This document shows positions 14,965-47,899 of a stretch of DNA of 64,000 nt, piece after piece. Under the pieces are notes generated by a model. It made no database searches, was not told the DNA's origin, and was given only the letters and a program-made list of their open reading frames with translations. The first letter of the stretch is position 1; each line of letters opens with the position of its first letter. Origin of the DNA: Mayamaea pseudoterrestris (lineage: Eukaryota; Bacillariophyta; Bacillariophyceae; Sellaphorales; Sellaphoraceae). The DNA lies in assembly GCA_027923505.1 (NCBI GenBank), contig BROI01000001.1, positions 962,501-1,026,500 of the forward strand, given 5' to 3'. The position numbers and the translations under genes were made by a program.

Positions 14965-15478
14965 GATGGTGGCGATGTAGTTGATGAATGGCACGCGAAG
15001 GTTGGAGGGTTTCAGCGGCACCGAAAGCGCGCGCCGGCCGTGCCGAATGAATACTCATGAGCGTTTGAATGCGCCAAAGCTAAGCTGTGAAGAACCCGCA
15101 TTACCGACCTCACGCGAGTAGGATCGAGTTGAACCATGCAACACACCAAGTCGTCGCGCAAAACAGAGAGGACCCTTCGCTGTCGACCCACCTTGACAGT
15201 GACATTCAAGACTACTTTCGAAACTACCGACTCGCGTATTGGTCTACTAGAGGCAAGTAGATTGGCTCATGAAGCGATTGTAGCATTTGCAGTCGTCTAA
15301 CTTTTTCTCCAATTTGTCACTCGACAGACGAGGAAGGCGTTTTCCAGATTCGACCAACTCACGTCCTTTCAAGCCACTTTTGTCGTCCTTGCGCATCAAC
15401 GATTGACTTTTTCGCAGTCAGCTACTTACTATAACAAGAGATTGTCAGCAGGGAGCTACCCAAGAAAAGGACTGGAGC
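14965..15478. other. Divergent promoter region, prefoldin 4 / SIN3
   Basis: About 510 bases with no supported gene. A 65-codon minus-strand frame at 15012-15209 probably lies in the prefoldin 5' leader and has no recognisable features. Confidence 0.45.
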
Positions 15479-18400
15479 ATGAATCCTTCGCCTCATGGTG
15501 GCGATCAGTCACCTCCTCCACAGCGTTCGATGCAAAACGTTGGCGCGGCGCAAAACGATGCCAGCAGTCACCAAGGTGCACCGGTTCATCACGGGAACGC
15601 AGACTCGACTAATGATGCTGCTGCTAACATCATGAGCCATTCATTCTCGAACATGACGCCGACAGAAAACATGACAATGGAGCAAGGAGGAGGAGCAGCA
15701 GCAGTAGCAAGTACTCTCGTCAGCGCGACTCCGACTGGTTCTGCTCCTCATGCGACGACCCTCATGCCGACGGCCGCAGTGTTAGAAAACACCAAGCCAG
15801 CCAATCTGCAAAGCATGATGCATCTACCGACGAATCATGCAACGAATAATCTTGCTTCGGAACCGGCTGCTGCTGCTACTGCAAATGTAGCGGAGTCAAT
15901 GCCAGTCCAACCAACCTTTGCTCCTGCTGATTCTGCAGTACCGACTGTGACGGCTGGAGCTGGTACAAGTACGATGGAAACGAACAGCTCGCCGTCTCCT
16001 CCAATCATGACGATGATGAACAATTCCGAGACGCAATCGGCAGCTCAAAGTCTTGCAGGTCCGTCGTCACTGCTACCAGCTCCTACATTGCTGACCATGC
16101 CGGCCCCGCCGTCAGCGCAGAATACTCCACTGCAACTGCCGCCTCGCACCAATGTCAAAAAGCCAGACGCAGCGGCAAAGAAGCCATCGGCGCCATTGAT
16201 CTTGCCTCATCTCAAGGTGCAGCATCAAGCTGGCAGTACTGCTGGAGCTACGACTGCTGCTGCAACAAACACTGCTCCACCAAAGACCAATCCAGGCCCT
16301 CCACAGCCGCCATTGCCTCCTCACTTTCAGCAAGCGTTTGCTGGACGCCATCCTAATGCTCCGCCTGGATCGCATCATCACCATCCACCGCCGCCGCCCT
16401 TTGGAATGCACATGAGCTTTCCGCCGCATCCTCACCATGGACCGCCGCCACCGCATCATGCGCATTTCAACAAGGGACCGCCGCCCCACTTGGCAGCAGC
16501 AGCGAATCGGCCGTTTGCCATGCATCACAACAAGGAAGGAGCTGCAGCAGCAACGGGAATGATGAGGCAGTCGCCCATTCCACCAATGGCAGTGGCAGTG
16601 AGGGAGCAGCAGCAGCAACAGCAGCAACAGCAGCAGCAGCAGCAGCAGCAACAACCACTAACAGGTGCAGCAGTGGCAAATGCTCGCGACGGACCATCAC
16701 CTGCGAATACAAATGTTGCGGCAACTGGACCAGCGCCCATGGATATTGACGAAGCACCAAAGCCGCCAGAAACGAATACTTCGCCTCCTGCTGGTGGCCC
16801 TGTAAACGCCATGATGATTGGCGAGCGTGCCCGAAACCATAATGCTCCAAACTTCTCGGCGACGAGCGATCATGCGGCAGCTCCGGGAGAAGCTCGAGCA
16901 GTTCCATCATCATCAGCAGCTGTGCACCGCAGCGCGCCAGCTCTGGCTGATGCTTCGGTAGCACCACCGCCGTTGCCGCACCGACCAAGTGTGCAGCCAC
17001 AGCCGCAGCCACAAGATGCTCATCAGCAAGCCAATAACAACAATAACAATGCAAACGGTGGTCAGTGGCGTGAGCTGCGCGTGGAGGACGCTCTCAACTA
17101 TTTGGATCATGTCAAGATGGAGTTTAAAGATCGCCCCAAGGTTTACAATCAATTCTTGGCTATTATGAAGAATTTCAAGTCGCAGGAAGTGGATACGCCA
17201 GGTGTTATCCGCATGGTGAGCAAGCTCTTTCGGGGATATAACAATCTGATTCTTGGTTTCAATACCTTTTTGCCGGATGGATATAAGATTAGTTTAGCCG
17301 ACTTGGAGCGTCAAGAGGAGGAGGAACGACAGCGCGAGGCCAATGAGGCTGCTGCGGCGGCAGGTGTTGTTCCTCCTGTGGCAAAGCCTGCTCACAACAT
17401 TCCACGAGGTCCGCCGCGACCACAACCCGCGTATGCAGCAGCTAACGCTGCGCGACAGCCGTATGAACAGCAAGCAGGATCAATGCAGTTACACCAAAAG
17501 CAATCTCAAGTTCCGATGGATAATCGCAAACCTGCGCCGCAAGCTGGGCCTCAGCCAAAGGAAGCGCATGGACAAGTCGCAATGCAGCAACATCAACCGC
17601 AACGCTCACCGCCTCAACAGCAACCGCAGCATCAAGCCGTTGAGTTTGACCATGCTATTTCTTATGTTACCAAGATTAAGCGTCGATTTGCAAATGACCC
17701 GAGCACATACCACAAGTTTCTCGAAATTTTGCACACCTACCAAAAGGAGCAGCGTGGCATTAAAGAGGTTCTTGAACAAGTTGCTCACTTGTTTCAAGAT
17801 CATCCAGATTTGCTAAAGGAGTTTACATTCTTTCTGCCGGACGCTGTTCAGGAACAGGCCAAGGAGAGATTGCATCGAGCTGCAGCAGAGTCTGAATCGC
17901 GTATCGCCAAGGCGCAGCAGGACTATCACAATCTGCATGGAGCGCGCCCAGCGCAAGTACCTCATCCACCGTCCCACAATCAGCTTATTGACATGACGAG
18001 GAGCCAACAGCTTACTTTGACGGAGGGGACGCGAAAGCGGTCGTTTGACGCAGCCGCAGGGAATGAGACGGTTGTTTACAACTCGGCAGTGGAGCGCCAA
18101 TTTTTCGACGCGGCGCGCGAAGCGCTTACTTCCTATTCTCGCGACGGTGGGCAAGCATGGGCCGAGTTTATCAAGTGTCTTGATATGTACGCACAGGATA
18201 TACTGTCGAGGAAGGAAATGCTTGATTTTGTGGAACCGTTGCTTGGCAAGCGAAACACAAAGCTCTTTGAAGAATTCAAGCGAATTTTGAATGCAGCTGG
18301 CTCGCCAACACATCCCTTGCCTTTTATGGAAGACTCTTGGCACTCTGTCCCACTGTCAGAGATTGACTTTAGTCGCTGCCGCCGTTGTAGTCCGTCATAC

Positions 18401-20443
18401 CGCGCGTTGCCTCGAGACTATCCTGCTCCGCCATGCGGCGATCGGAGCGAGGAGGAACGAATGGTTTTGAATGACATTTGGGTTTCATTGCCTGTTGGAA
18501 GTGAAGAGAGCTACACGTTTCGTCACATGCGCCGCAATACTTACGAGGAGACATTGTTCCGCGTTGAAGATGAGCGATTTGAGATTGACATGGCTATTGA
18601 CACGAACGCGGCGACTTTACATCGACTGGAGCCAATTGCAGAGGAGATTGCATTGTTGTCGCAGGAAGATCCAACAATCAGCGACTTGGGGTCAAAGGTA
18701 GACGGTACAGGGCTGGGCGGCAAGCGTTTCCAATACTCCTTTGACAGGAGTATCTTGGGCGTAATTCATCGTAATTCGATTACTCGCATATATGGCGATG
18801 GCGGGGCCGAAGTGTTGGAGCTCATGTACAAGAACCCAACTGTCGCTATCCCACTCGTTGTTGAGCGTTTGCGCCAAAAGGCGGTCGAGTGGCGCGCCGT
18901 CAGGGATCGTTTAAATCGCAATTGGAAGGAGCTAGCTCAGTTAAATTACTACAAGAGTCTTGACCACCGCGGCTTGACATGGCGAGCCGTTGATAAACGC
19001 ATCACCAGTGCTCGGGCAATTGTTCTTGAAATTAAGGACCGTGCACTACATGGAGGCAAGGAAGGACCTGAAGCGCTCAAGCAGAAGCTCGACAAGGCAA
19101 AGGAAGAGCACGGTGCTTTTTATGAAGTAACAATGAAAGGAGAGCTGTCCAAGAGCTTGGATCTTACGTTTCTACCGAGACCTGACAGGCGGCTGTTCAC
19201 TCCCCACCTTAGTGTCATGTACGAAAACAACTCATGGGCACAGCGAGACGCTTACCGGATACTAGCATTTGCCCTTGAGCGTGGACCAACCACTCCTGGC
19301 GACAAGGAACGGTGTCATCGTTTGTGGATCGAGTTCTTTGGACCATTCTTCGGACTCGATCTGAGCTGGATGGAGCGTCCTGCAGTGACCTACATGGAGT
19401 CGCATACTGCACCCAACAGTGATGCTCCAGTTACTAAGGCAACCGTTGTAAGCGACAATGACGACGACGAAATAATGCAAGACGCCAATGGCAAAGGCAT
19501 TACTGTTGTCACGGAGGAACTACGCCAGAATGGAGGTGCGGATGCTAGCGGACGCGATTTTACGGATTATCATCCACTACCGCCGGGTGCTCATGTCTCG
19601 ACATTATATGGTCAAGGAAGGGTTATTGAATTTCGCCGCTCGGATCACATTTATGTTGTGCAACTACAGTTTGGCGCCGTTGGTTACCTACGCCCTGCGA
19701 CGGTTCTATGCAGCATCCTCCCAGTTGAAAAGTCTGCGTACACGAGGGAGCTTTGCAGCAGCGACTTTTCAAAGTTAGCTAGACCAGGCGACCAGCTGGC
19801 GATGGGTACGCAGAGTCTATATCTTTTCTTCTATCTGCACCAAATACTGATTCGTCGATTAAATATTGCGAAACGTTTAGCGTACGAGGTTGGCGAGGAC
19901 GAGTCTCTAAAGACGCTTGTCGAACAGATGCCGAATTCAAACAAGAATGCGGTTGGACGTCGTCGCTACGAGGCTTTCTTATCTCTTGTGTATGGCTTGC
20001 TTGATGGTGGAGTGGGTGGTCCATCGGAGGGAGAAAAGTACGAAGATCGTCTTCGCGGGCTGCTTGGCCATGGGTCCTACGAGCTTGCCACTATTGATAA
20101 ATTGGTAGCGCATATTTGGAAAAACATACAACAAATGGCTGGAGATGAGACAATGTGGAATTTGGTTCAGCTCTACCGTCGACACTTGAAAAGTACCACT
20201 GGATTTCAACCGGAAGCATTCCGACAAGAGGCTGCTTATCAGAGCGAAGGCGAACCAATGTACGCATTTCAGTATTGTGCTATGACTGGACAAGACAAGG
20301 CTGTACTGCATATGGAGTATGTTGGTGTTATGGAAGACGAAAATGATGAATCCGACGAGGACGAAGATTCCGCTTCGGTTGACGGACGACTACAAGAACC
20401 TGTTGTCCTAGTGGAGCCGACGAATAAGCGACCCAGGCGCTAA
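15479..20443 (+). CDS. SIN3: SIN3-family transcriptional co-repressor
   Basis: A single intronless frame of 1654 residues. The first 520 or so are disordered and rich in Pro, Ala, His and Gln, with a polyglutamine run near residues 376-392. Three paired amphipathic helix (PAH) domains follow: about 529-606 (RVEDALNYLDHVKMEF), 720-790 (FDHAISYVTKIKRRF) and 874-945. The third is the most diverged. The HDAC-interaction domain is near 960-1060 (IDFSRCRRCSPSYRALP), and the Sin3a C-terminal domain runs to an acidic tail and a basic RRPR-like end. The order matches animal and yeast Sin3, which scaffolds class I histone deacetylases to repress transcription in the nucleus. A polyQ run next to PAH1 is common in this family. 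Confidence 0.95.
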   Translation: MNPSPHGGDQSPPPQRSMQNVGAAQNDASSHQGAPVHHGNADSTNDAAANIMSHSFSNMTPTENMTMEQGGGAAAVASTLVSATPTGSAPHATTLMPTAAVLENTKPANLQSMMHLPTNHATNNLASEPAAAATANVAESMPVQPTFAPADSAVPTVTAGAGTSTMETNSSPSPPIMTMMNNSETQSAAQSLAGPSSLLPAPTLLTMPAPPSAQNTPLQLPPRTNVKKPDAAAKKPSAPLILPHLKVQHQAGSTAGATTAAATNTAPPKTNPGPPQPPLPPHFQQAFAGRHPNAPPGSHHHHPPPPPFGMHMSFPPHPHHGPPPPHHAHFNKGPPPHLAAAANRPFAMHHNKEGAAAATGMMRQSPIPPMAVAVREQQQQQQQQQQQQQQQQPLTGAAVANARDGPSPANTNVAATGPAPMDIDEAPKPPETNTSPPAGGPVNAMMIGERARNHNAPNFSATSDHAAAPGEARAVPSSSAAVHRSAPALADASVAPPPLPHRPSVQPQPQPQDAHQQANNNNNNANGGQWRELRVEDALNYLDHVKMEFKDRPKVYNQFLAIMKNFKSQEVDTPGVIRMVSKLFRGYNNLILGFNTFLPDGYKISLADLERQEEEERQREANEAAAAAGVVPPVAKPAHNIPRGPPRPQPAYAAANAARQPYEQQAGSMQLHQKQSQVPMDNRKPAPQAGPQPKEAHGQVAMQQHQPQRSPPQQQPQHQAVEFDHAISYVTKIKRRFANDPSTYHKFLEILHTYQKEQRGIKEVLEQVAHLFQDHPDLLKEFTFFLPDAVQEQAKERLHRAAAESESRIAKAQQDYHNLHGARPAQVPHPPSHNQLIDMTRSQQLTLTEGTRKRSFDAAAGNETVVYNSAVERQFFDAAREALTSYSRDGGQAWAEFIKCLDMYAQDILSRKEMLDFVEPLLGKRNTKLFEEFKRILNAAGSPTHPLPFMEDSWHSVPLSEIDFSRCRRCSPSYRALPRDYPAPPCGDRSEEERMVLNDIWVSLPVGSEESYTFRHMRRNTYEETLFRVEDERFEIDMAIDTNAATLHRLEPIAEEIALLSQEDPTISDLGSKVDGTGLGGKRFQYSFDRSILGVIHRNSITRIYGDGGAEVLELMYKNPTVAIPLVVERLRQKAVEWRAVRDRLNRNWKELAQLNYYKSLDHRGLTWRAVDKRITSARAIVLEIKDRALHGGKEGPEALKQKLDKAKEEHGAFYEVTMKGELSKSLDLTFLPRPDRRLFTPHLSVMYENNSWAQRDAYRILAFALERGPTTPGDKERCHRLWIEFFGPFFGLDLSWMERPAVTYMESHTAPNSDAPVTKATVVSDNDDDEIMQDANGKGITVVTEELRQNGGADASGRDFTDYHPLPPGAHVSTLYGQGRVIEFRRSDHIYVVQLQFGAVGYLRPATVLCSILPVEKSAYTRELCSSDFSKLARPGDQLAMGTQSLYLFFYLHQILIRRLNIAKRLAYEVGEDESLKTLVEQMPNSNKNAVGRRRYEAFLSLVYGLLDGGVGGPSEGEKYEDRLRGLLGHGSYELATIDKLVAHIWKNIQQMAGDETMWNLVQLYRRHLKSTTGFQPEAFRQEAAYQSEGEPMYAFQYCAMTGQDKAVLHMEYVGVMEDENDESDEDEDSASVDGRLQEPVVLVEPTNKRPRR
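16604..16652. repeat. CAG-type triplet repeat encoding polyglutamine in SIN3
   Basis: A run of about 16 CAG/CAA codons codes the polyGln tract. CAA interruptions are present, which usually stabilise such repeats. Confidence 0.85.
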
Positions 20444-20492: not shown

Positions 20493-22397
20493 TTACCAAA
20501 ACGAACTTCGTCCGTTATCGATAGGTGGCTTGTCCCTGCATGGGATCTTGGATGGTTTGTCACGGTAATGACATGCAACCAGCGGCTCCGATGAACAACA
20601 ATGGCTAAAAACATCGTCCACGCCACCACCAATCTCATCCGCTCTCTTGCCATTGCATTGCTCATTCAGATGCCAGTGTCCAAGTTGTTGCATAAACTTC
20701 AATTTGTTATCCTTGTTCTTGGTCCAACTCATGTGAAAGATGAAGGGGTTTACCGAGCCATCGCCTTGTAGCATCTGCTTCATGTAAGCGTGATTACGAT
20801 GAAAGTGATAGCCACCGGGGAACAAACCGCCTTCCTCTTGATGAACCCCAAACACCTTGACCTTTAAACCTCTCCAGTTCGCATGCTCCACCAACACGGA
20901 AGTCAAAACACCTTGATGACTCCCGCTCGCTAATATTAGATCGCCCATGCGTAAAAACACACTGAAAAAGTACTGCGTCCTCGGATTGTTTCGGACGAAG
21001 TAAAAACCACTGTTGGGACTGAACGGCGCGTATCGAGCTGATCGCGCGCCGTCGTCTTGAAAATACATGTCAAAGTCGCCTGCCGCGTCTGAATGAAAAA
21101 AGTCCAGCGGATTGCGGTACCAGTAAATGTCCAAATCCTGAAATAGTAGGTCGTAACCCAGTAGATTGATCAAATGAACGCAATATACCTTGCTCATCAT
21201 CATGCTGGCAAAATGCTTGTCGCCATAGACGCGAGCAGCCACCTTGGGCATTTCTCCAAAGGCTTGGTCAACAAAAAACGAATGAATCCCCAGTGAGACT
21301 GCCAAGTCATGCGTTTCTATATCAGTGGCGAATAGTAAAACGTGGCTAATGTCCAAATGACGCGACCGGGCGGCGCAAACGAAATTGGCGAGAAGACTTG
21401 CCTGTCCCCAGTTGCTGGTCATGACAATAACAGTATTTCCGCCAACCCCAGCAGCTTTTGCAGCAATTGGTTTAAGGCGTGCAATAGTGTCATCCAACGA
21501 CGCCAAGTATTTTGTCAAAACATCCCAATAGTTAGTCACTTGCTTTGCAGTCGGCAATTTGGCCACTTTTCCATTGTTCTTTTGGCCGCGAGGCACCAAT
21601 CGCAGCGCCTCTTCATCAGACGCCCCCTTGTTTCCCTTTTCGGGTAGACGCATGTACTTGTCAACGGTATAACTCTCCCACTGACCTAATATTGCAAGAC
21701 ATTCTTTATCCTTTTTTGGTTGCTGAAGAATCAAGCGTACAGTGTGGCAGTGGGCCGTGGCATCAGATGCTGAATACAGTGGAACGGTTGATGTAGTTGA
21801 TTCGTTCTTCCATGGTTTGGCAGTCGGCAAAGCAGCCTTGTTGCTGTAAAGCACGAGTACGTCTTGGTTGCTTGACGTGGTCTTGTCCAGCGGAACGCCA
21901 AGATTTAAGAGTTGGGTAAAGGCATCGCGCTTGACGCGAGCCATGCCGTTTAGAAATAGACCAACCGTGTCAATTGGTAGCGAGTCTTGCAAATTGCTTC
22001 GTATAGTCGACGCTGCACCCACTTTGCTGGAGAACAAGCCCAATGGACCGTTCCTTGAACCTTGTGTATCAATGGATTGGACGGATCGAGCAGTTGATGC
22101 TGACGTTTCCAGCATGGCATGAGGTGAGAGCATAAGTGATTCGTCGTGTCCCGAAGTTGTATGATGATACAAATAACCAAGATTAAAGGCCACCAGGGCT
22201 ATTGACAAATGCGACAAGACTGATAGTATGCTGCATGGCAAAGAGCGATTTGCTGAAGATTGCTGTCGCCGAGGTGACATGCTTGTAGGTTGTTGAGGAT
22301 GGCTTGCTGCACCATTGCTCGAAAGGAGGTGTTGCGGTCGTGAGGAGCTGCTGCCCGGATGATGCGCAGAAGAAGCGTTTACTGGAGACACCATCAT
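20493..22397 (-). CDS. GT77-type nucleotide-diphospho-sugar transferase, type II membrane protein
   Basis: 634 residues in one exon. A Ser/Pro-rich cytosolic tail is followed by one membrane helix at about residues 53-76, the layout of a Golgi glycosyltransferase. The catalytic domain (about 310-620) has a TSNWGQASLLANFVC strand, a LLFATD..THDLA block and the DLD motif at 421-423 in LLFQDLDIYWYRNP, which binds the metal and sugar nucleotide. This arrangement matches the PF03407 family, including plant RRA, XEG113 and RGXT arabinosyl and xylosyltransferases. It is likely to act on a cell-wall or secreted glycan, but the sugar donor cannot be read from sequence. The stem (80-300) shows no homology that I recognise. 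Confidence 0.85.
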   Translation of the reverse strand: MMVSPVNASSAHHPGSSSSRPQHLLSSNGAASHPQQPTSMSPRRQQSSANRSLPCSILSVLSHLSIALVAFNLGYLYHHTTSGHDESLMLSPHAMLETSASTARSVQSIDTQGSRNGPLGLFSSKVGAASTIRSNLQDSLPIDTVGLFLNGMARVKRDAFTQLLNLGVPLDKTTSSNQDVLVLYSNKAALPTAKPWKNESTTSTVPLYSASDATAHCHTVRLILQQPKKDKECLAILGQWESYTVDKYMRLPEKGNKGASDEEALRLVPRGQKNNGKVAKLPTAKQVTNYWDVLTKYLASLDDTIARLKPIAAKAAGVGGNTVIVMTSNWGQASLLANFVCAARSRHLDISHVLLFATDIETHDLAVSLGIHSFFVDQAFGEMPKVAARVYGDKHFASMMMSKVYCVHLINLLGYDLLFQDLDIYWYRNPLDFFHSDAAGDFDMYFQDDGARSARYAPFSPNSGFYFVRNNPRTQYFFSVFLRMGDLILASGSHQGVLTSVLVEHANWRGLKVKVFGVHQEEGGLFPGGYHFHRNHAYMKQMLQGDGSVNPFIFHMSWTKNKDNKLKFMQQLGHWHLNEQCNGKRADEIGGGVDDVFSHCCSSEPLVACHYRDKPSKIPCRDKPPIDNGRSSFW

Positions 22398-22855
22398 TAA
22401 TCTTTACTATATACGAGTCTCTATCAGCAGTGATGGGCTTCTAAATATGCATTTTTCTTGCAGTGGGCCTTCATTTTTGTTTGGCCATGGTGAAGGCGAG
22501 GCGTTGAGAATTTCCTACCGTTTGATAACCGGAGCGACAAAGAGTGACACTAGAGGAGAAGGAACGCGGGGTTCCGTAGTTTGGCCATCCACCATGGCGC
22601 TTACGATGCCACAATGAACGATACACTTAATCGAATAGCAAGCTATATTAAACGCGACATGCAGCAATGTGTTAATATCCATGAACTACACTCAGCTTAA
22701 TAATTATAACGCGTATGCATTATGCTAGCATGTACAATAAGCAGGAACAATGAAATAGAAGTGGCATGACCACTAGCTGATTGGCAACATCATAGTTGCT
22801 GCGACCTATATTGAGCGTAGCGCCAAAAATGTACCGCAACTAGACCGACAATTGA
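22398..22855. other. Intergenic
   Basis: About 460 AT-richer bases between two minus-strand genes, holding the GT77 promoter and the 3' end of the CRAL-TRIO-bZIP gene. No gene or repeat seen. Confidence 0.5.
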
Positions 22856-25800
22856 TCATCTTGGTTGTTGCTGCTGGGGTCCTTGCCCGTTGTACCATGA
22901 TCCATTTACCAAGTTGGAAATGAAGTTTTGCTGCTGTTGCTGCGCCTGTTGTTGCTGCTGCTGTCTTTGCTGATGATGCTGGTAGTCCAAAGTGTTGGCA
23001 GGATACGCACCAGACGACGAATATGCTGGTGGGGGATGGCGCAGACCCAACTGCTGTTGGCCAAGGGCCAGCAAGTGGCGCTCTTGAGCTTGCTGCAAAG
23101 CAAGGGTGCTGGCCAGCTGCTGTCGATTCTCGAGCGACAAGGAAAAAGAATTAGGCTCGACCAATCCAGTGGCATTTTCAAAATTGCTGTTAGAAGGTGC
23201 CAATAAAAAGTTCTGCAGGTTAATGTGCTGGCCGTTCGATCGCGAGTTCTTGTTCAGAAGCAACTGCAAGCCCCAATTGCTCGACCCGTCGTAATCGTTG
23301 CCCTGCGGTGAAGCATTCATTCGAGCTGCACCACCTTCAGAGATTGCGTCCAATGGAGTCTCGACTTTCGCTTCAATCTTGGCCACTTCCAGCTTGGCCG
23401 ATGACAACAATCCGTCAAGTCGCGTATTCTGCGAACGCAATCTAGCATTTTCATCCTGCAGTTCGGCAACTTGCTCGGCAAAAACTTCCATTTCAATCTT
23501 TTCGCGCTCGCGACGACGTCGGGCATGTAGTACATTCATACGTCGCTTCCTTTCAGTCTTTTCCTCGTCCACCATTTCCGACAATGCCTTGGCATGGTAA
23601 TTCGGAATATTTGGATTATCGTGATCCTTAGACGCAGGCGGCAAATCCCATTCGTAACGAAGCCTCGCTTCCTGCCATTTTGAGAACTCTTCAAAACCCC
23701 AAGTTCCACCGAGACACTTGGGAACTATATTACTAGGAATGTCATACATCAGTAGTTTCTTCACAATGTCTTCCTTCGTCTCACCCACATGGACGTGCGA
23801 CCGCTTCTTCAATCCTCCAATAAGCCTGAACAAGACAGGAAGCATTGTCTCCATAAAAGACTTTTTCTCCGAGACGGTAGGCACGTTGCAAATGTGCATT
23901 GCGTAGGTACGTGTTGGCATGGCTTCCGCTATAAGTCGTTCAGCGTCAGAAACGACCGTGTCCAAAACAGGTTTACCCATTGCCGTTATAAGTTGGTAGC
24001 CATCCAACTGCGAATTCTCATTCTCTGATAGCATGGTCCAGAAATAAAACAAAGCGCGAAGACGTGGGTCACGCAAATGACTTGTTCGTCGCGATGAGTC
24101 GTGGTAAATAACTGAACGCCCTTGTAGATCCAGTCCCAAAAGCGCAAAGAATCCTGAATTGATAAAAGCCACGTCGTCGCGCGACAAAGCTCCTTCTCCG
24201 GTTTGATTCAGTGGCAAAAAGGCACTCTCGCCGAACACGTTTTTGCGTTCCTTCCAATAAAGGGCTAACCGCTTGGCTGCTGCCCAAGCATTATATCTCT
24301 CAACGCGTAGAAACCGAATCAAAGGCGTCTCCTTCTCTACAAGCTCCGGAATCTCGAGTCTGGCTTGAAGCAATACTGCTTTATCGTCGTCGGGGAGCAA
24401 GTCAATGGCTGCTTCCATTTCCTCAAGTCCCCTCTTAATTATTGAGGGTGTCTCGACCCAAGCACCGGATTCTTCGTACTCGTAGAGCACCGCGTTTGAT
24501 GGAGCATTGTCCCTGCGTGGCCGCTTATTAGAGCCCTCACCATTTCCGCTTGGGCTGTCGCGCTTCCTATCCTCTTGTCGGTTGTTCTCAGCTTGCAGCT
24601 CCGACACAAATTCGCTATCGATGATTCGTCGCTCGTCCTTAAACTTGCGAAAGTACTCATCGTCAAGACTACCTCCAATGGAATCTGGAAGTTTCTCCTT
24701 CCAAAATCCATACATACGAAGGCGTGAAAGCATTTCTTGTGGCGAATTTGTGACATGAATCATAAGCTGCGGTCCATTGACTTGCGTGATAAACTTAATG
24801 AGGATTTGAAAAATGGACACAAAGAAATTATTCGAGTCTTCAGTCTCGGCGGGCTTGATACAAACAAAATGAGCCTTATTCCACCGCAAGGGGAAGACGT
24901 GGACAAGCATGTGCAATCCGCGAGACATGCTCCCAGACAAATGTTCACTGCCGACCATTGGATGAATGGTAACCAGACTGTCGGTCTGACTTTTCGGATT
25001 CTCCAAAGCAATGCGTATAACGTAGAAAAAAGCCGCTAGTCGATCTTCCTCGGCAACGTTTGCCCACCCTTCCCCATAACCGACCGCCGAGTTGATACAG
25101 ACGACTGACCGTCCCTCATCATCAACGGGAAGGGATTCAAAACATCGCACATCAATTAGCTTTTGTGCATTTTTCGGCAAAGTGTCATATGTCAGTGGAA
25201 CAAAAGCTTTGTCTCCAAAAATCGACTTTCGCTCCTTCCAGTAAGCAACAAGCCGACGAGCTGCTGCCCATGGATTGTACTTTTCAGTCCGCAAAAACAA
25301 AATCGGATTCGATTCGGCGGCAACCAATGCAGGGCTCAGCGCCTTAGCATTGTAATAATCTACCTTGTCTATGTCAGGAATGACACTCAAAGCATCTTCA
25401 AGCTGCAAAAGTGCTTCCTTCTCGACTGCTTCGTTGACGCTAACCCCATTGTTGCGACTTATCCTACCCGACATCGCCTCTCCCAGCTTCATTAATGCGG
25501 CTGTATTCTGTCGAGCTCTGTCCCGATCATTTTCGCTAGAGCTAGACATCGAGGATGAACGTTTGCGAATATCCTCCGGCGTTGCTATAAGGCCATGCGT
25601 TTGCAAAAAGCCGTGCGAATCCCACAAACCTCCACATGACGGCGGACATGCCTCCTTTCGCATTCCATACTTTTGCAATTGAGCAAGAATCTCTTCCTTT
25701 GATTCACCAAAGATTGGTATCGACGCTTTTCCGAAAAAGGTTGATGTCACCTGAACCGCACTGGGCATGACACTGTGAATAAAATCATACTTCGAGTCGT

Positions 25801-26561
25801 CATCAATCGCCTGCACTGAATACACAGACTTGATCTTAAGCGGACAAGCCTTGACAAAAATTTCAAATGGCAGAGGAGAGAATCGATTTACATCTCGCTC
25901 TCGCATCATCAAAAGTATGACCACGCCATTCGTTTGCGCCTTGACATTGCGGCAAAGAATGTGTGAAAGAAAAAAGGACGACCGCATACGGTGCGGCAAC
26001 AAAAAGTCCTTGGCGTCGGATAGCTCGGCAATCTTGGCCGCGTCGGAGAACAAAACCTGAAAGAGAGCAGAGATAATTGGTTGAGTCACGCGAAAAATGC
26101 ATGTGAGTCGTTCCAGTTGATACAATATCATGTCAACTTACCGGACAGCCTTGTTCATCCTCCGGCAAAACGACACGAAAACCCGACTGTAGCAAATGCA
26201 CATCGTCCATATCAAGCGCGTAGTTTCCATCGGTTGCTGTAATTGCAAGAAACGCTCGTTCCTCAAAACATTCCTTTCTCATTTTCCAGTAAAGCGCCAG
26301 CCGAAAGGCTGCAGGCCAGGGCGAAAAGTCTTCGCACCGCAAAAATTGAATTGGATCACTCTCAGACTGAACCAAGTCAGGACATTTGCGCCAAGCTTCA
26401 ATCAGTGCTGATTTTATTTCCGGAGGTATCTGATCAATCGCATCCTTCAATCCAAAGTAGGCTGCTCGATGCTGCTCCAAGCTCTCGCCGTCGTGAAGTT
26501 GGGTCGTGCTCGCAAGGCGACTTTCGATCCATTCCGGATTCATAAACGACGAGAGCGGCAT
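22856..26561 (-). CDS. Triple CRAL-TRIO (Sec14-like) protein fused to a bZIP domain
   Basis: Two exons, 26561-26142 and 26056-22856, joined in phase 0 (intron 85 bases, GTAAGT...TTTCAG), give 1206 residues. Three tandem units each start with FLR.E.(Y/F)..W.AA.RL..YWK.R (about residues 73, 394 and 722) and end with a P-x-x-x/GG motif like the end of the Sec14 lipid-binding fold. The intron lies inside unit 1, and splicing is needed to complete it. After unit 3 comes a basic region RRMNVLHARRRRERE (N981, R989 in the bZIP spacing N-x7-R). Heptads follow with F999, L1006, L1013 and L1020 and Asn at an 'a' position. The last 160 or so residues are Gln-rich. This suggests a transcription factor with lipid- or ligand-binding modules. 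No membrane helix or targeting peptide is seen. The function is inferred; domains are seen by motif only. Confidence 0.85.
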
Positions 26562-27092: not shown

Positions 27093-29614
27093 CTACGCGA
27101 CTGGGTCAGCATTTTCAAGCTCTTCCGCCAGCTCCATCCATCGAAGCTCCTTTGCTTTAATTTCAATGTTTAAAGTCGCTAGCTCTTCTGTCAAATCCGC
27201 CAAAACGGACCAACCTTCCGCACTACTGTCGTCAATCTTCTTCTGCACCTTGGCAGCCTTTATCATAAGCCTGGCAACTTGCTTTTCCAAATTGTCAACT
27301 TCCTTCTTGGCCTGTCGAAGAGCGTTACGTTGCTGGTTGCGTGCCGCCTTGTCGTCGCGATAGTCAGCGGACTTGTCCGTCGTCAAATCAGCTTGATCGC
27401 TAGCGACGCCAGACTGCCGCGATATACTGTCATTTTCAATGTCAATCAAAGTGGACGCATACTCTGATAGCGTGCCGATAAAGTCCTTAATTTCGCCAGC
27501 TCCTTCAAAAATGAACAAGTGATCCGTCACCTTGTCGGCAAATGCGCGATCATGACTTACCAGCAAAAGGACGCCATCAAATTCCTGGAGAAAGGATTCA
27601 AGCGCCGAAAGCGTGTCTAAATCGCAATCGACACTGGGTTCGTCCATGATAAAAAAATTTGGCTTCTTGCTAAAGACTGACAGCATTTGCAGTCGCCGTT
27701 TCTCTCCGCCTAAAACCGTCATATATACATATGAGAACAGACGACGCAGCAAACACATATGTACTGTACCGTGTCACGAGCATGCGACTTACCAGAGAGG
27801 ACCGATACTCGATCATTCCACCGTTGGCGCGAGAACTCAAAACGTTGAAGTAGCTTTCTTGCATCATCAGCGGCGGTGGCCGTGTAACTATCCGTCGCCG
27901 ACTGTACCTTCTCCATGACGAACTCTAGCACAGTCTGCTGAGGATGATCGATTGAAATGCCCATTTGATCGTAGAGACCCAGCACAACTGTATCACCCAT
28001 TTCGATTGCTCCACTATCAGGTGGTTGTTGACCTGTTATGACCCTCACAAGTGTCGTCTTTCCTAGATTGTAAACCGATAATCATGAACACTTCCGATGA
28101 GAACCTTTTTATCTTGAACGCAATGCGATGACGCGCAAAGACACACTTTAAGACATCGTAATTGCCGCATATCACGTACCTACACCATTCGCTCCGCTTA
28201 GACAAATGCGATCTCCTCTGCAGAAGTCATACGAAAAGTCATTCAACATTGCACGATCACCAAACGTCAGATTGACATTCCGCATCGACAATATTTTGCT
28301 ACCAAGTCGTTGCTTGCCATTGCTGTCGATGCTTAATGATGGATCCAGTGGTTTTGGTTTCGTGGCTTGCTGTAGTTTGTAAAATGCATCAATCCGAGCT
28401 TTCGCCTTGGTTTGTCGAGCCTGTGGCTGGCGTCGCATCCAATCGAGCTCTACCCTGTATTTGGCCTTGACAGCCTGCGCTGCCGCAGACTCTAGAGCGA
28501 GTCGATCCTGTTTGCCCTGCAAATAGTCGGCATACTTGCCCATGTACTCGTATACCTGTCCGTTGTCCAACTCCAAAATGCGATCACAGACTTCATCCAA
28601 AAAGATGCGGTCATGAGTGACCATGAGAATCGTCAGTTTCTTTTGTTCCGACGTGAGCAAATCCGACAACCATTGGACACCTGCCAAACTGAGAAAATTG
28701 GTCGGCTCATCTAACGCCAAAACGTCAGGATCTTGTACCAAAGCCGCGGCAAGAGCCACTCGCTTCACTTCGCCGCCAGAAAGCTGTGACAACTTTGAAT
28801 CACGCAAATACCAGACTCGTAGCTTGTCAGCAACCATTTCAGCGCGCGTCAAAACTTGCCAGCCATTGCACCGATCCATGTCAGCGCAAGCTTCGGTAAA
28901 GCTAGTAGGGTCCAACTCGGCATGGGCCGATGCAAGCCTGTAGCGACGCACGACGGAAAATACATTGTTGCTGTTGCCGCCATTTCTGTCAGCTGCAGCG
29001 TCATCTATAAGACTTCCCGTCATTCCAAAGAGGGCATCACCAACAGTGAGGTCAGCAGCGTGCACCAATGGCTCTTGCTCCACATAGGCAACACGCGCTG
29101 TCCGTGACAAACTGACAGTCCCCGCGTACGGAACATCGAATGGCGCATGCCCTCCATCTTTCACACATTGATCAGCCAGTATCTTCAAAAAAGTGCTTTT
29201 TCCCGCGCCATTGCGACCAACCAACGCGACCTTGGCGCCTCGTTGCAAAACGTAGGAAACGTCCTTGAGTTGCCAATTTTCGCCGCCGTCGTGAGAGCAA
29301 GAGAGATTCTCGATACTCAAGACAGGAGGCTGAGATGATGGCAGAGTGGATGAAGATATAGATGATGGTGACGAGGAAGAAGAGGCTGCTGATAGAATAG
29401 TAGAAGTTGATGAATGTGTAGGAGTCAATGAAGAATGTGATCCTGCCGATCGAACAGTTGGTGATAGATGATGGCGTCGTTTTCTAGCCAGCGAAAATGA
29501 CGGAAAGACAGTAAATGCTGAGACAGACAAGTCATTTCGTTGTATCAGTAGCGAATTGATCAAACCGATGGCTGAAATAAGCAGCCATCTTGTACGTCGA
29601 AGGGGCAGTCTCAT
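27093..29614 (-). CDS. Plastid-targeted ABC-F ATPase, Uup-like
   Basis: Three exons (29614-28180, 28062-27793, 27709-27093; introns 117 and 83 bases) give 773 residues. The N terminus has a signal-like helix and VSAFTV at 31-36, a variant of the diatom plastid motif. Two ATPase domains follow with no membrane domain. The first has Walker A GRNGAGKST (133-141), signature LSGGE and Walker B DEPTNFLS (usually DEPTNHLD). The second has GANGVGKTT, LSGGEKRR and MDEPSVDCDLDTL, then LLLVSHDRAF. The linker between domains is basic and helical, and the C-terminal 90 residues form a coiled coil as in Uup. ABC-F proteins act on ribosomes. Uup-like members help ribosome assembly or rescue, here probably in the plastid. 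Intron 1 splits the second Walker A and intron 2 splits the second signature motif. Confidence 0.9.
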
Positions 29615-29833
29615 GGTGCAGAATGTGAATGAACGAGAGATTACACTTTGATGGTGGCGCGCCTGCGCGGTTATTGACGTCATCATCGTCGCTCCGTTAC
29701 TGCGGCTAGCCCCTGCTATCTACCGGTAGTTCACGGGTTCAATCTGCTTGATACTTGTAGGAAGAATTGGTGTAGATATAGCTATTCGCGCTACTGGATA
29801 TTGCTCCTACCTGCTTTCCTGACCGCTTGTTCG

Positions 29834-31537: not shown

Positions 31538-31792
31538 GGTGCTTGGAACGGGTCTTGTTGCACTGAGAGCCAAATCGATTCATCATGGAGATGATCAGTG
31601 ACGAGGAAAGATCTTGATCTCGTTCCAACAAAATGTCTGTCCGGTACTCATTTAAAACCGGTACGACGTACGATTCAGACGACCGAACGCCGAGCTTCAT
31701 TTTGATGATCGTCACCATGGCTGATGAAGGAGTCGCTCCATGACTATAGTACATACATTAGCTCTCTCCAGACATTGAAAATTCTATAAAGC

Positions 31793-33079
31793 ATGAGCTG
31801 CCAAGTTATGCAGCATTGCTCGATGCTTATGAGAATAATGCCGCGCAATGTATCTCATTCACCCATTTACGGACGACTGAGAATCGGTCGAAAACGATCA
31901 TGTGCGTCAAACTCGAGCGATAAGCAATCAAACCAGCAAGAGGATTCACTCAAGAGACTTATAAACCAACGAAAGAAGGTAATTTCTGCATTTATTGCGG
32001 CAACTTCTTTCGTTGCCATTTGCCTTGCAGTGAATCAAAAGTCGAAGCACGAACGACGAGTCAAAATTCAAGAGCTTCCATTGGCGACTTCAGAAACACT
32101 TTCTGCAGCGTTCAATTCTTCGCATGACAGCAGCAACAACCACTATCTGAATCTACCCAAAATTTGGCAATTGGTGCAGCGAACGGCGCTCATGGGGAAG
32201 CACCAGCGCATGCGTGACGACTTGGTTAACATTCGAAAGTGGCATTTAGAGCATGGCTTCAAGGGAGGCCTCGTATTGAGAGACTTGACCAAGCCAGCCT
32301 TTGGCATGGACCTTGTTGCTGACGGACAAGTCAGCGATAACATTGACAATCTAAATGACAACGACGACTGGACCTTGCAGGAGATTATTGACGATCCAAC
32401 GAGACTGGCTCGACGAGAGTGCTACTACATGTATTATGAGATTCGTGAGGATGGTCAAGTCATTCAGCAAATATTCTGTCGAGGAACGACACTCAAGGCT
32501 GATATATTGACCTGTCTCGAGGCATGGATGGTATACGACGAAGACCTTGGCTGTCGATTGCATCGCGGCTTTCGCAATCAAGCTGACCGCATTCTTCATG
32601 ATGTACTTCCCTTACTATCACCACAGTCAAATAGACGCAGCACCGTTGAACTATGTGGACATTCCTTGGGCGGAGCTGTTGCCATGATTCTGGCCGCCAA
32701 GTTGCGCAAGCGTGGCTATCGAAACGTAGTTTCCGTCCTGACGATTGGCGAACCTCGGTTCTGCTGGAGCGACAAGGATGCAAGCATTTTAGCGGCGCAG
32801 CTACCCAAGAATACATTGCGCATGGAAGGGGACTTGGACTTTGTCACGTTTCTGCCACCATTTGGGTCGCATCCAATGGTCAACAAACTTTGGTTGGCAA
32901 GTTGCGATGGTGGCGCAGTTGAAGGTGAAGCGTTGCAGTCTCTGCGGATTGTCAATGTGCACACGCACTCTTGGACCGATCGCGTCTGGATGAATCTGCA
33001 AATTTGGAAGTTGTTACAACTTCGCGGAAAGCCCCATCGGCTTCCATACTATGTGGAGGCCTTGCAGCGCGAGAATTAA
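31793..33079 (+). CDS. Class 3 lipase with an N-terminal membrane anchor
   Basis: 428 residues in one exon. A basic N terminus is followed by one membrane helix at about 62-80 (VISAFIAATSFVAICLAV). The alpha/beta-hydrolase lipase_3 domain covers about 215-400: an IFCRGT oxyanion segment, a LHRGFRNQADRIL stretch, the nucleophile elbow CGHSLGGA with Ser291, then LTIGEPRFCW and DFVTFLPP...H. The Asp and His of the triad are expected in the last two blocks. This type includes diacylglycerol and plastid galactolipid lipases. Substrate and membrane are unknown. A TATA-like TATAAAG lies just before the ATG. The gene is divergent from the fucosidase gene, with 255 bases between their starts. Confidence 0.88.
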   Translation: MSCQVMQHCSMLMRIMPRNVSHSPIYGRLRIGRKRSCASNSSDKQSNQQEDSLKRLINQRKKVISAFIAATSFVAICLAVNQKSKHERRVKIQELPLATSETLSAAFNSSHDSSNNHYLNLPKIWQLVQRTALMGKHQRMRDDLVNIRKWHLEHGFKGGLVLRDLTKPAFGMDLVADGQVSDNIDNLNDNDDWTLQEIIDDPTRLARRECYYMYYEIREDGQVIQQIFCRGTTLKADILTCLEAWMVYDEDLGCRLHRGFRNQADRILHDVLPLLSPQSNRRSTVELCGHSLGGAVAMILAAKLRKRGYRNVVSVLTIGEPRFCWSDKDASILAAQLPKNTLRMEGDLDFVTFLPPFGSHPMVNKLWLASCDGGAVEGEALQSLRIVNVHTHSWTDRVWMNLQIWKLLQLRGKPHRLPYYVEALQREN

Positions 33080-46133: not shown

Positions 46134-47636
46134 TCATATTGTCTTGGTACAATTTTCTGTCTTGCCCCGGACTTGCGCCTTCAGAGTACCATCGCTGTAA
46201 TTCAGGTGCAACTGCGGTAGCACATCATGAACTCCCACGACTTCACTCTCCGTCGAGCTTCTTGTTACCAACTTCTGTTTAGCCGACGTACTGTACACTG
46301 ATCCTTGACCAAGTGTCATTGTTCCACCAGTGTGACCCTTCATGTCTGGGTGTACCGCGTACGACGCATCCACCCACCACTGGACTATCCCGGACTGGTC
46401 CGCCTTCAGCGTCAACACCATGTCCACGCTTCCGCGTAAATATTTAATCACTCTTGCAGCCTTCTTATAGTCGTCTTCGTCAGGCTGCTGCAGCCTCGTG
46501 CTCAAGAAAGAAATCGCTGTGCGAATATCCGGTCGCGCTCGCTGACTCAGATACAGACACTGCATCACAATCGTCACAAAAATCTGCTTCTTTGCTTCGC
46601 TCAACATGACTGGATTTTCCGAGATCTGAAACAAGTGACTGGCGGCCGGAGTAGCTGCCGTTCCATCCATGTCGTCCGGCGCATGATGAAGGATGTTCTT
46701 CACATAGTCAACCATGTTGATTGCTACTTCTCCAGGCTTAGTATAGTCCAATACCATGCCGAGGTAGTCGTGCACTTTTCCGCGTGACTTATTCATTGGA
46801 GTCTCCTTGCCGAACTCCTCATCCATCTGCGCGATGAACTCATTCACTACGCTCACGTCGACGTGTGAAATCTTCAAATCGTCCACGTGCCATCCCACGG
46901 TGATTTGCTTTCCATTGACAATCTTGTTACACACACACGGATCGTACGGGTTCTTCTCGAAGCCCCACTCAAGCAATTTTGCAGACAGCTTCTCCCAGAA
47001 TAGTCGTGCTGCTCGAAGCGTACCATAAAGCGCCATGAGTAATTCGACGTACATGACTTTCTCGCCATTCTCCATTGTGACGCAAGGCTCGTACATCTCG
47101 CGATCAATTTCCAACAGTAGCTCCACCATCTTCCCAGTGAAACGTACGTGCACCAACTCATCCATTTCCGCTTGCATGAAAGCGCCTGGTACATCAACTA
47201 CAGCAACCTCGCGCCCTTCCATAGCGTCAATGATAGCCGTCAGAAATATGGCCTCTGTCGCTATCGTTGGAGATGCTGCGTCTTCCTTTGCAGTGTATGC
47301 TCGTTGCTTGCGTCCATCCGCGCAACCGCGTCCCTTCACTGTCCCGCATCGCTTGCGCTTGAGAAACATCAAATACGCCAGCGCGTCCTTGCGCTGCTGC
47401 GGAGTCAGAGTGCACTGGGGGACTGCCTTCATGACGTGCCTGTCGTGTAGCTGCTGCATTTCCTTGCGCACTGCCTCCACTCCAGCATCGCCGAAAGCCT
47501 TTAAACCTTGTCGCATGTTCATCTGTGCCGTGACGAGTGGCTCCGACACTTCCTCTGCAGCGTCGAGCGTGAACAAATGAGCGAACGATCGAGGTTTGCG
47601 CGCACGCAGGCCATACCGACCCAGTGCGTGGGCCAA
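46134..47636 (-). pseudogene. Copia reverse transcriptase/RNase H region (fossil)
   Basis: Shows RVT_2-type motifs: AFMQAEMDELVHVR, YGTLRAARLFWEKL, NPYDPCVCNK, the catalytic-box WHVDDLK, and an RNase H stretch with WWVDASYAVH and STAKQKL.TRSSTESE-like sequence. Part of the decayed element, not a host gene. Confidence 0.88.
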
Positions 47637-47899
47637 CGCGCATCGAAATCCTCTTCGTCTGCAGCAGCTGGCACTCCTTCAATTTCGCCTTCATCGGGCA
47701 CTCCTTCAATTCGCCATCATCCCACGGCTGGCGCGTCGTCGAGTTCGCCGTCAATGGCCTCACATCACCAGCCTCGTCGCCCGGCACTCCTTCGATTGCG
47801 CCGTCACACCATCGTCGTCGTCGCTGTCATCGTCATCGGTCGCATTCACTCCTTCGCTTCCGCCGGCAGATCGTCGTCGCCGCGAAGCGTCGTCATCGT

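Follow-up and report, generated by a model that had tools for sequence, protein, structure and literature searches.

Three CRAL-TRIO-Type Units Joined to a bZIP in a Predicted Diatom Protein: a Candidate Lipid-Sensing Transcription Factor

Here we describe a gene of the diatom Mayamaea pseudoterrestris whose predicted product carries three CRAL-TRIO-type units followed by a bZIP segment in one and the same polypeptide. The gene lies on the minus strand of a 64,000-nucleotide stretch of DNA, hereafter called the window (NCBI GenBank assembly GCA_027923505.1, contig BROI01000001.1, positions 962,501 to 1,026,500 of the forward strand); the assembly of this species is listed in PMC12159174. The three-unit architecture in one predicted protein is supported by profile matches, by the reading frame and by the recurrence of the fusion in other proteins. 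By its predicted product, the gene is a member of a CRAL-TRIO-bZIP family, which is present in M. pseudoterrestris and among database homologs. The units are nearest to carriers of hydrophobic ligands, and a role as a lipid-sensing transcription factor is plausible for the protein.

Results

One gene encodes the units and the bZIP

The product of 1206 residues and its stop codon are encoded in two exons, running on the minus strand from position 26561 to 22856 (Table 1). Exon 2 is a single open frame of 1093 codons, which holds the second half of unit 1, the other two units, the bZIP segment and the C-terminal tail. Seventeen splice combinations keep the frame open, the chosen one among them. 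The chosen splice joins QGCPV to LFSD inside unit 1, and at the equivalent place unit 3 runs on uninterrupted (QGRSV followed by IYHD). This splice, 26141/26057, is favored because its joint matches the continuous unit 3 and because exon 1 itself resembles unit 3. An earlier note on this DNA had given the same coordinates, intron and protein length, and the reconstruction of exons and splice bears them out.

The units and their nearest relatives

A family profile was trained on 24 such units, which 12 database homologs (P0002-P0013) supplied; the window gene and its paralogs were excluded. This profile finds all three tandem CRAL-TRIO-type units that the earlier note had proposed, and Pfam PF13716 (CRAL_TRIO_2, the divergent CRAL-TRIO family; cut-off 23 bits) is passed by units 2 and 3. 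Among the three, unit 3, which adjoins the bZIP, shows the strongest conservation. As a control, 1000 shuffled sequences (200 each from the window protein and four paralogs) were compared with the unit and bZIP profiles, and none matched either of them at E <= 10. The ending with Pro and GG that the earlier note had seen is present in every unit; its spacing had to be corrected to P-x3-GG in all three.

The label "Sec14" given to the units in that note was too specific, as they match PF13716 and, in PDB, CRALBP, which carries retinal, and alpha-TTP (alpha-tocopherol transfer protein), which carries tocopherol. PF00650 (the classical CRAL_TRIO) and PF03765 (CRAL_TRIO_N), the two families it had named for profile searches, lent no support: PF00650 stays under its cut-off on unit 3 (14.3 versus 22.6 bits), and PF03765 is absent among the Pfam matches of the exons and the isolated units. 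Elsewhere in the family, PF00650 is passed in two of the eight homologs of one Pfam scan, P0002 (29.3 bits) and P0011 (28.3 bits), and in the C6 paralog (24.0 bits).

A second profile was built from six units, namely units 2 and 3 of the window protein, units 2 and 3 of C6 and the units of the C7 and C15 paralogs; unit 1 of the window protein and unit 1 of C6 were omitted. Against PDB, this six-unit profile matched CRALBP with an E value of 3.3e-7 and alpha-TTP with 6.7e-6. Specifically, all ten distinct sequences at E <= 0.001 were CRALBP or alpha-TTP. The alignment to alpha-TTP begins in the N-terminal FLR segment and continues into the domain, with which the Pro and His columns that are invariant in the six units also align. 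Since the PDB matches of the six-unit profile at this threshold were CRALBP and alpha-TTP only, the units are, by sequence, nearest to the ligand-carrier side of the CRAL-TRIO superfamily.

A bZIP with an unusual basic region

The bZIP segment follows unit 3 after a short linker. Its heptad register was taken from the gapless alignment to GCN4, and in that register the F-L-L-L heptads and the a-position Asn (N1010) stand as the earlier note had described them; the N-x7-R spacing of the basic region and the Gln-rich tail after the bZIP were likewise found. A second Asn occupies an a position beside N1010, namely N1017. A profile made from 12 of the 26 family bZIP segments matched GCN4 chains in PDB with E values of 3.6e-5 to 4.4e-5, without a gap, with Asn on Asn and with matching heptad registers. 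In that list, GCN4 was followed by other bZIPs and by general coiled coils. Pfam bZIP_2, with a cut-off of 22.3 bits, gave 19.4 bits when exon 2 was scanned, 25.1 bits on the segment in isolation and 25.8 bits in the genome scan; bZIP_1 stayed under its cut-off of 27.6 bits, with 16.5 and 21.9 bits.

The basic region reads NVLHARRRR, with V at N+1, His at N+3 and R at N+7. The genome scan found 14 other bZIP loci, 13 of them readable with the Asn (L039 showed none). Each of the 13 carries R at N+1 and S, T or C at N+7, and 6 of them have His at N+3, as the window protein does. Thus, with N+1 and N+7 unusual and Pfam scores near or under the cut-off, the word "canonical" in the earlier note was too strong. 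From the unusual basic region, we infer that the DNA site recognized by this bZIP would not be one of those usual for bZIPs.

The stretch KRPRR between units 2 and 3 is, we presume, of the nuclear localization signal type, and its counterpart in homolog P0002 is KRARK.

Homologs and paralogs

Homologs were collected by three protein searches, and because each of them scored only the roughly 8000 candidates sharing most words, the resulting lists are lower bounds. At least 22 homologs were found besides the window gene and the C7 paralog (P0002-P0013, P0015-P0017 and P0018-P0024). The architecture, which the earlier note had suggested looking for in stramenopile proteomes, is widespread among them, since 21 of the 22 carry one or more units and then a bZIP in one frame; three paralogs in the same genome (C6, C7 and C15) share the fusion. 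The number of units per protein ranges from one to at least three. PF13716 passes in all eight homologs of the Pfam scan mentioned above and in C6, and the family profile gives 113.9 and 150.5 bits to the units of P0015 and P0016. Of the 26 bZIP segments, 25 keep the key basic Asn and 22 keep Arg at N+8. For the 14 homologs and paralogs scanned with Pfam, none of which passed a bZIP cut-off, the bZIP is assigned from the family profile and the alignment. Viral and prokaryotic relatives were sought with a peptide pattern, which matched 19 stretches of viral_contigs and 36 of genome_contigs; by tblastn, none of these encodes a relative.

The C7 paralog has the sequence MGNQVS, and homologs P0015 and P0016 start with MGNRAS and MGNSIS. 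A start of the form MGNxxS is typical of N-myristoylation, for which the C7 branch is thus a candidate. The 264 amino acid (aa) protein of C15, which has a bZIP segment and no unit, could have lost the sensor or could represent a form that preceded the fusion.

Spacing and conservation across the family

The GG of the last unit and the basic Asn lie 55 to 60 residues apart in 20 of the 25 proteins that have both parts. The exceptions are P0013 with 71 residues, the C15 paralog with 37, and the C7 branch with 105, 101 and 113. Furthermore, in 16 of the 18 multi-unit proteins the highest score falls to the last complete unit; most of the 18, though not the window protein, had been used to train the unit profile.

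A comparison of the window protein with P0002 gives the same impression. Unit 3 is 76% identical between the two, unit 1 57% (residues 166-292 only) and unit 2 55%. The first and second linkers are 36% and 50% identical, and the linker to the bZIP 69%. The bZIP is 70% identical and the tail 43%; the basic region, at 86%, is the highest of the stretches compared. The bZIP-adjacent unit therefore seems to be the most constrained of the units.

A tree of 47 units brings the last units together, with 4 label changes against a mean of 15.6 for shuffled labels, and none of 500 shuffles was as low. In reading this result, near-copies favor the grouping, the bootstrap had yet to converge and 14 of the 44 inner branches are weak. 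Since the last units group across proteins, the duplication of units seems to predate the split of many of these lineages.

Table 1. Features of the gene and of its paralogs. Positions are those of the window unless a locus is named; bit scores are those of the family profile unless a Pfam family is given.
Feature	Position	Strand	Residues or length	Remarks
Exon 1	26142..26561	-	1-140	Protein start and first half of unit 1; 45% identical to unit 3
Intron	26057..26141	-		85 bases, GT..AG, phase 0; predicted from sequence
Exon 2	22856..26056	-	141-1206 and stop	
CRAL-TRIO-type unit 1	25601..26420	-	48-292	Intron-interrupted; 202.6 bits
CRAL-TRIO-type unit 2	24629..25375	-	368-616	224.8 bits; PF13716 31.1 bits
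KRPRR, candidate nuclear localization signal	24512..24526	-	651-655	Between units 2 and 3
CRAL-TRIO-type unit 3	23660..24394	-	695-939	300.4 bits; PF13716 42.8 bits
Linker from unit 3 to bZIP	23582..23659	-	940-965	GG to basic Asn, 58 residues
bZIP segment	23363..23581	-	966-1038	94.3 bits (profile trained on the same 12 homologs)
Basic region	23498..23563	-	972-993	N981 and R989; 19/22 residues identical to P0002
Leucine zipper heptads	23375..23482	-	999-1034	d: F999, L1006, L1013, L1020; a: V1003, N1010, N1017
Gln/Asn-rich C-terminal tail	22859..23362	-	1039-1206	168 residues, among them 31 Q and 18 N; putative activation region
Paralog C6			1016 aa	Three units and bZIP
Paralog C7	L041 1402-3669	-	755 aa	One unit and bZIP; unit 122.0 bits
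Paralog C15			777 aa	One unit and bZIP; unit 110.3 bits
C15 bZIP-only protein	L043 1356-2150	-	264 aa	Basic region NALYARRKY; no CRAL-TRIO unit in frame

Neighboring genes

The direct neighbors of the gene are a PF03407 nucleotide-diphospho-sugar transferase (20493-22403, minus strand) and, at 27093-29719 on the minus strand, open frames matching ABC_tran and ABC_tran_Xtn, apparently a single ABC ATPase gene interrupted by introns. A Sin3-type co-repressor (PAH repeats, Sin3_corepress and Sin3a_C) is encoded at 15407-20443 on the plus strand, about 2.4 kilobases away from the CRAL-TRIO-bZIP gene on its low-coordinate side. A class 3 lipase gene lies nearby at 31790-33079 (plus strand). Farther off, at 46134-47678 on the minus strand, there is a piece of an RVT_2 reverse transcriptase, which we take to be of the copia type.

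Discussion

Lipid sensing may reasonably be inferred from the kinship of the units with carriers, together with the way in which the last unit and the bZIP have stayed coupled across the family. We consider it slightly better than an even chance that the protein is a lipid-sensing CRAL-TRIO-bZIP factor, working as follows. The protein would act in the nucleus as a bZIP dimer, and a hydrophobic ligand (a lipid, sterol, tocopherol, carotenoid or retinoid-like compound) would occupy the unit beside the bZIP. Binding of the ligand could alter dimerization, access to DNA or residence in the nucleus, and gene expression would thereby track the level of the ligand. The upstream units may be accessory, adding avidity, partner binding or more ligands, and the Gln-rich tail may recruit the transcription machinery.

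Several observations weigh against this picture or against the family on which it is built. As regards the units, the spliced unit 1 is without any Pfam match and is seen by the family profile alone. The PF13716 match is under the cut-off in C7 (17.1 bits) and P0016 (15.0 bits), and there is none in the 777 aa C15 protein and P0015. Moreover, PF13716 includes domains that work via protein contacts. When the profile was made from the larger alignment, A1, the PDB matches were weaker, with E values of 2.6e-5 for CRALBP and 0.14 for alpha-TTP. As regards the bZIP, the profile of A1 reached only 0.43 for ATF4 and 0.9 for GCN4. No Pfam bZIP cut-off is passed by any of the 14 homologs and paralogs that were scanned, and in P0013 and the 264 aa C15 protein the Pfam scan lists no bZIP family at all. 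The key Asn is Val in P0024, and the Arg at N+8 is Tyr in C7, the 264 aa C15 protein, P0015 and P0016. As regards the fusion, P0020 stops right after its last unit, without a bZIP in frame, and one paralog, the 264 aa protein of C15, has the bZIP without units. Finally, since there are close copies among the homologs (P0003, P0004, P0006 and P0008; P0009 and P0010), the 22 are not independent cases.

The units might instead be ligand-free modules for protein interaction or dimerization, so that the protein would be an ordinary bZIP with a multi-unit scaffold. BCH domains, relatives inside the divergent CRAL-TRIO group, are interaction modules, and it is the divergent family PF13716 that the units match in Pfam. 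The tandem repetition of one to at least three units per protein and the faster divergence of the upstream units would also suit a scaffold. However, the PDB sequences matched at E <= 0.001 are without exception ligand carriers, and the invariant Pro and His columns find their place in the alpha-TTP domain, though sequence alone cannot reveal a cavity. We therefore regard a ligand-free scaffold as unlikely.

Control might also be exerted away from DNA. CRAL-TRIO proteins bind membranes and phosphoinositides, and the units could tether the factor there until it is released and enters the nucleus, with the C7 branch perhaps held by N-myristoylation as well. The MGN sequences of the C7 paralog, P0015 and P0016 would fit such tethering, as would KRPRR, a separate candidate stretch for nuclear entry. 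In contrast, the window protein starts with MPLSSF and has no MGN start, and in the NCBI gene model for the C7 paralog (P0014, MPSEU_000458500) the start lies ten residues upstream of MGN. A spacing of 55 to 60 residues between unit and bZIP also suggests more than a loose tether, though in the C7 branch it is 101 to 113. To membrane tethering as the principal mode of control we likewise give a low probability.

A further possibility is that the basic coiled coil is a positively charged dimerization coil and not a DNA-binding bZIP. The failure of all 14 homologs and paralogs at the Pfam bZIP cut-off, the non-classical residues at N+1 and N+7, the loss of the Asn in P0024 and the general coiled coils that come after GCN4 among the PDB matches could be read in this way. 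Yet the Asn and the Arg at N+8 are kept in 25 and 22 of the 26 segments, respectively, and the gapless match to GCN4 (E 3.6e-5) spans the basic region as well as the zipper. The isolated segment of the window protein exceeds the bZIP_2 cut-off (25.1 versus 22.3 bits), and no stretch compared with P0002 is as well conserved as the basic region. A mere coil is thus very improbable. The idea of an artefact, in which chance, two adjacent genes or a misassembly were mistaken for one gene, is rejected as hardly credible, given the single 1093-codon frame of exon 2, the absence of matches in 1000 shuffles and the identical fusion in 21 of the 22 homologs and the three paralogs.

Returning to lipid sensing, a wider picture can be offered more tentatively, as something possible and somewhat short of probable. 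By analogy with nuclear receptors, the family might comprise lipid-responsive regulators of diatoms, each contained in one protein, with a candidate pocket, a fixed linker and a DNA-site class of its own. It might further include a membrane branch, possibly myristoylated, which a signal would release. How diatoms sense the state of their lipids, sterols or pigments is, in our judgement, a gap in knowledge with a bearing on oil production and on stress physiology. A concrete candidate for such a sensor is offered by this conserved family, which combines carrier-type units and a segment of the DNA-binding type in one protein. Because the bZIP scores lie near or under the Pfam cut-offs, lists of transcription factors based on domains may have missed the CRAL-TRIO-bZIP family.

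Comparison with known systems

A survey of stramenopiles names bHLH-PAS and bZIP-LOV as the domain associations common to two of them, P. tricornutum and N. gaditana (PMC4827209). These associations resemble the present one in pairing, in a lineage-specific manner, a domain of sensor type with a DNA-binding domain; CRAL or Sec14 is absent from the main text of that survey. In its passage on signature genes of centric and pennate diatoms, the paper on Seminavis robusta gives 40 CRAL-TRIO superfamily genes, and bZIP does not occur in that paper (PMC7335047). Classes of bZIP with altered basic regions are described in oomycetes, in an account that makes no mention of CRAL or Sec14 (PMC4046829). 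No description of CRAL-TRIO combined with bZIP in algae was found among the papers listed from the literature searched, outside which lay subscription journals and bioRxiv, and an older list of diatom factors could mention the combination. CRAL-TRIO, bZIP and leucine zipper occur together in at least three of the listed papers, which deal with a dandelion, a Trichoderma and a mosquito.

CRALBP and alpha-TTP resemble the window protein as the PDB relatives of its unit profile. They differ in that up to three units precede a bZIP here; to our knowledge, the carrier domains of CRALBP and alpha-TTP stand without a DNA-binding domain. Conventional bZIPs such as GCN4, AP-1 and ATF4 share with it the N-x7-R spacing, the heptads and, as in GCN4, the Asn at an a position, the alignment to GCN4 being gapless. 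Unlike the window protein, GCN4 has T at N+1, Ala at N+3 and S at N+7 in place of V, His and R, and it is the window protein that is fused to CRAL-TRIO units.

The aureochromes, the LOV-bZIP blue-light receptors of stramenopile algae, are a close parallel, as they belong to the same lineage and unite a sensor domain with a bZIP in a single polypeptide. The genome of M. pseudoterrestris has LOV and bZIP matches together on C36, C3, C1 and C13, as expected of aureochromes, and one of its LOV stretches shares 99.1% identity, across 113 residues, with the best PDB match. His at N+3, as in the window protein, recurs in three of these four LOV-bZIP loci. A PAS or LOV (PAS_9) match was found neither in exon 1 or exon 2 nor at the window gene in the genome scan. 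The window protein thus differs in its sensor, which is CRAL-TRIO and not LOV and which comes in up to three or more units. The order of parts also differs, the units being N-terminal to the bZIP here and the bZIP coming first in the two LOV-bZIP frames read in this genome. In the basic region, NVLHARRRR stands against NREHAKRSR and NRILARRTR. If lipid sensing holds true, the CRAL-TRIO-bZIP family would give the sensor-bZIP fusions of stramenopiles a second type of sensor in addition to LOV.

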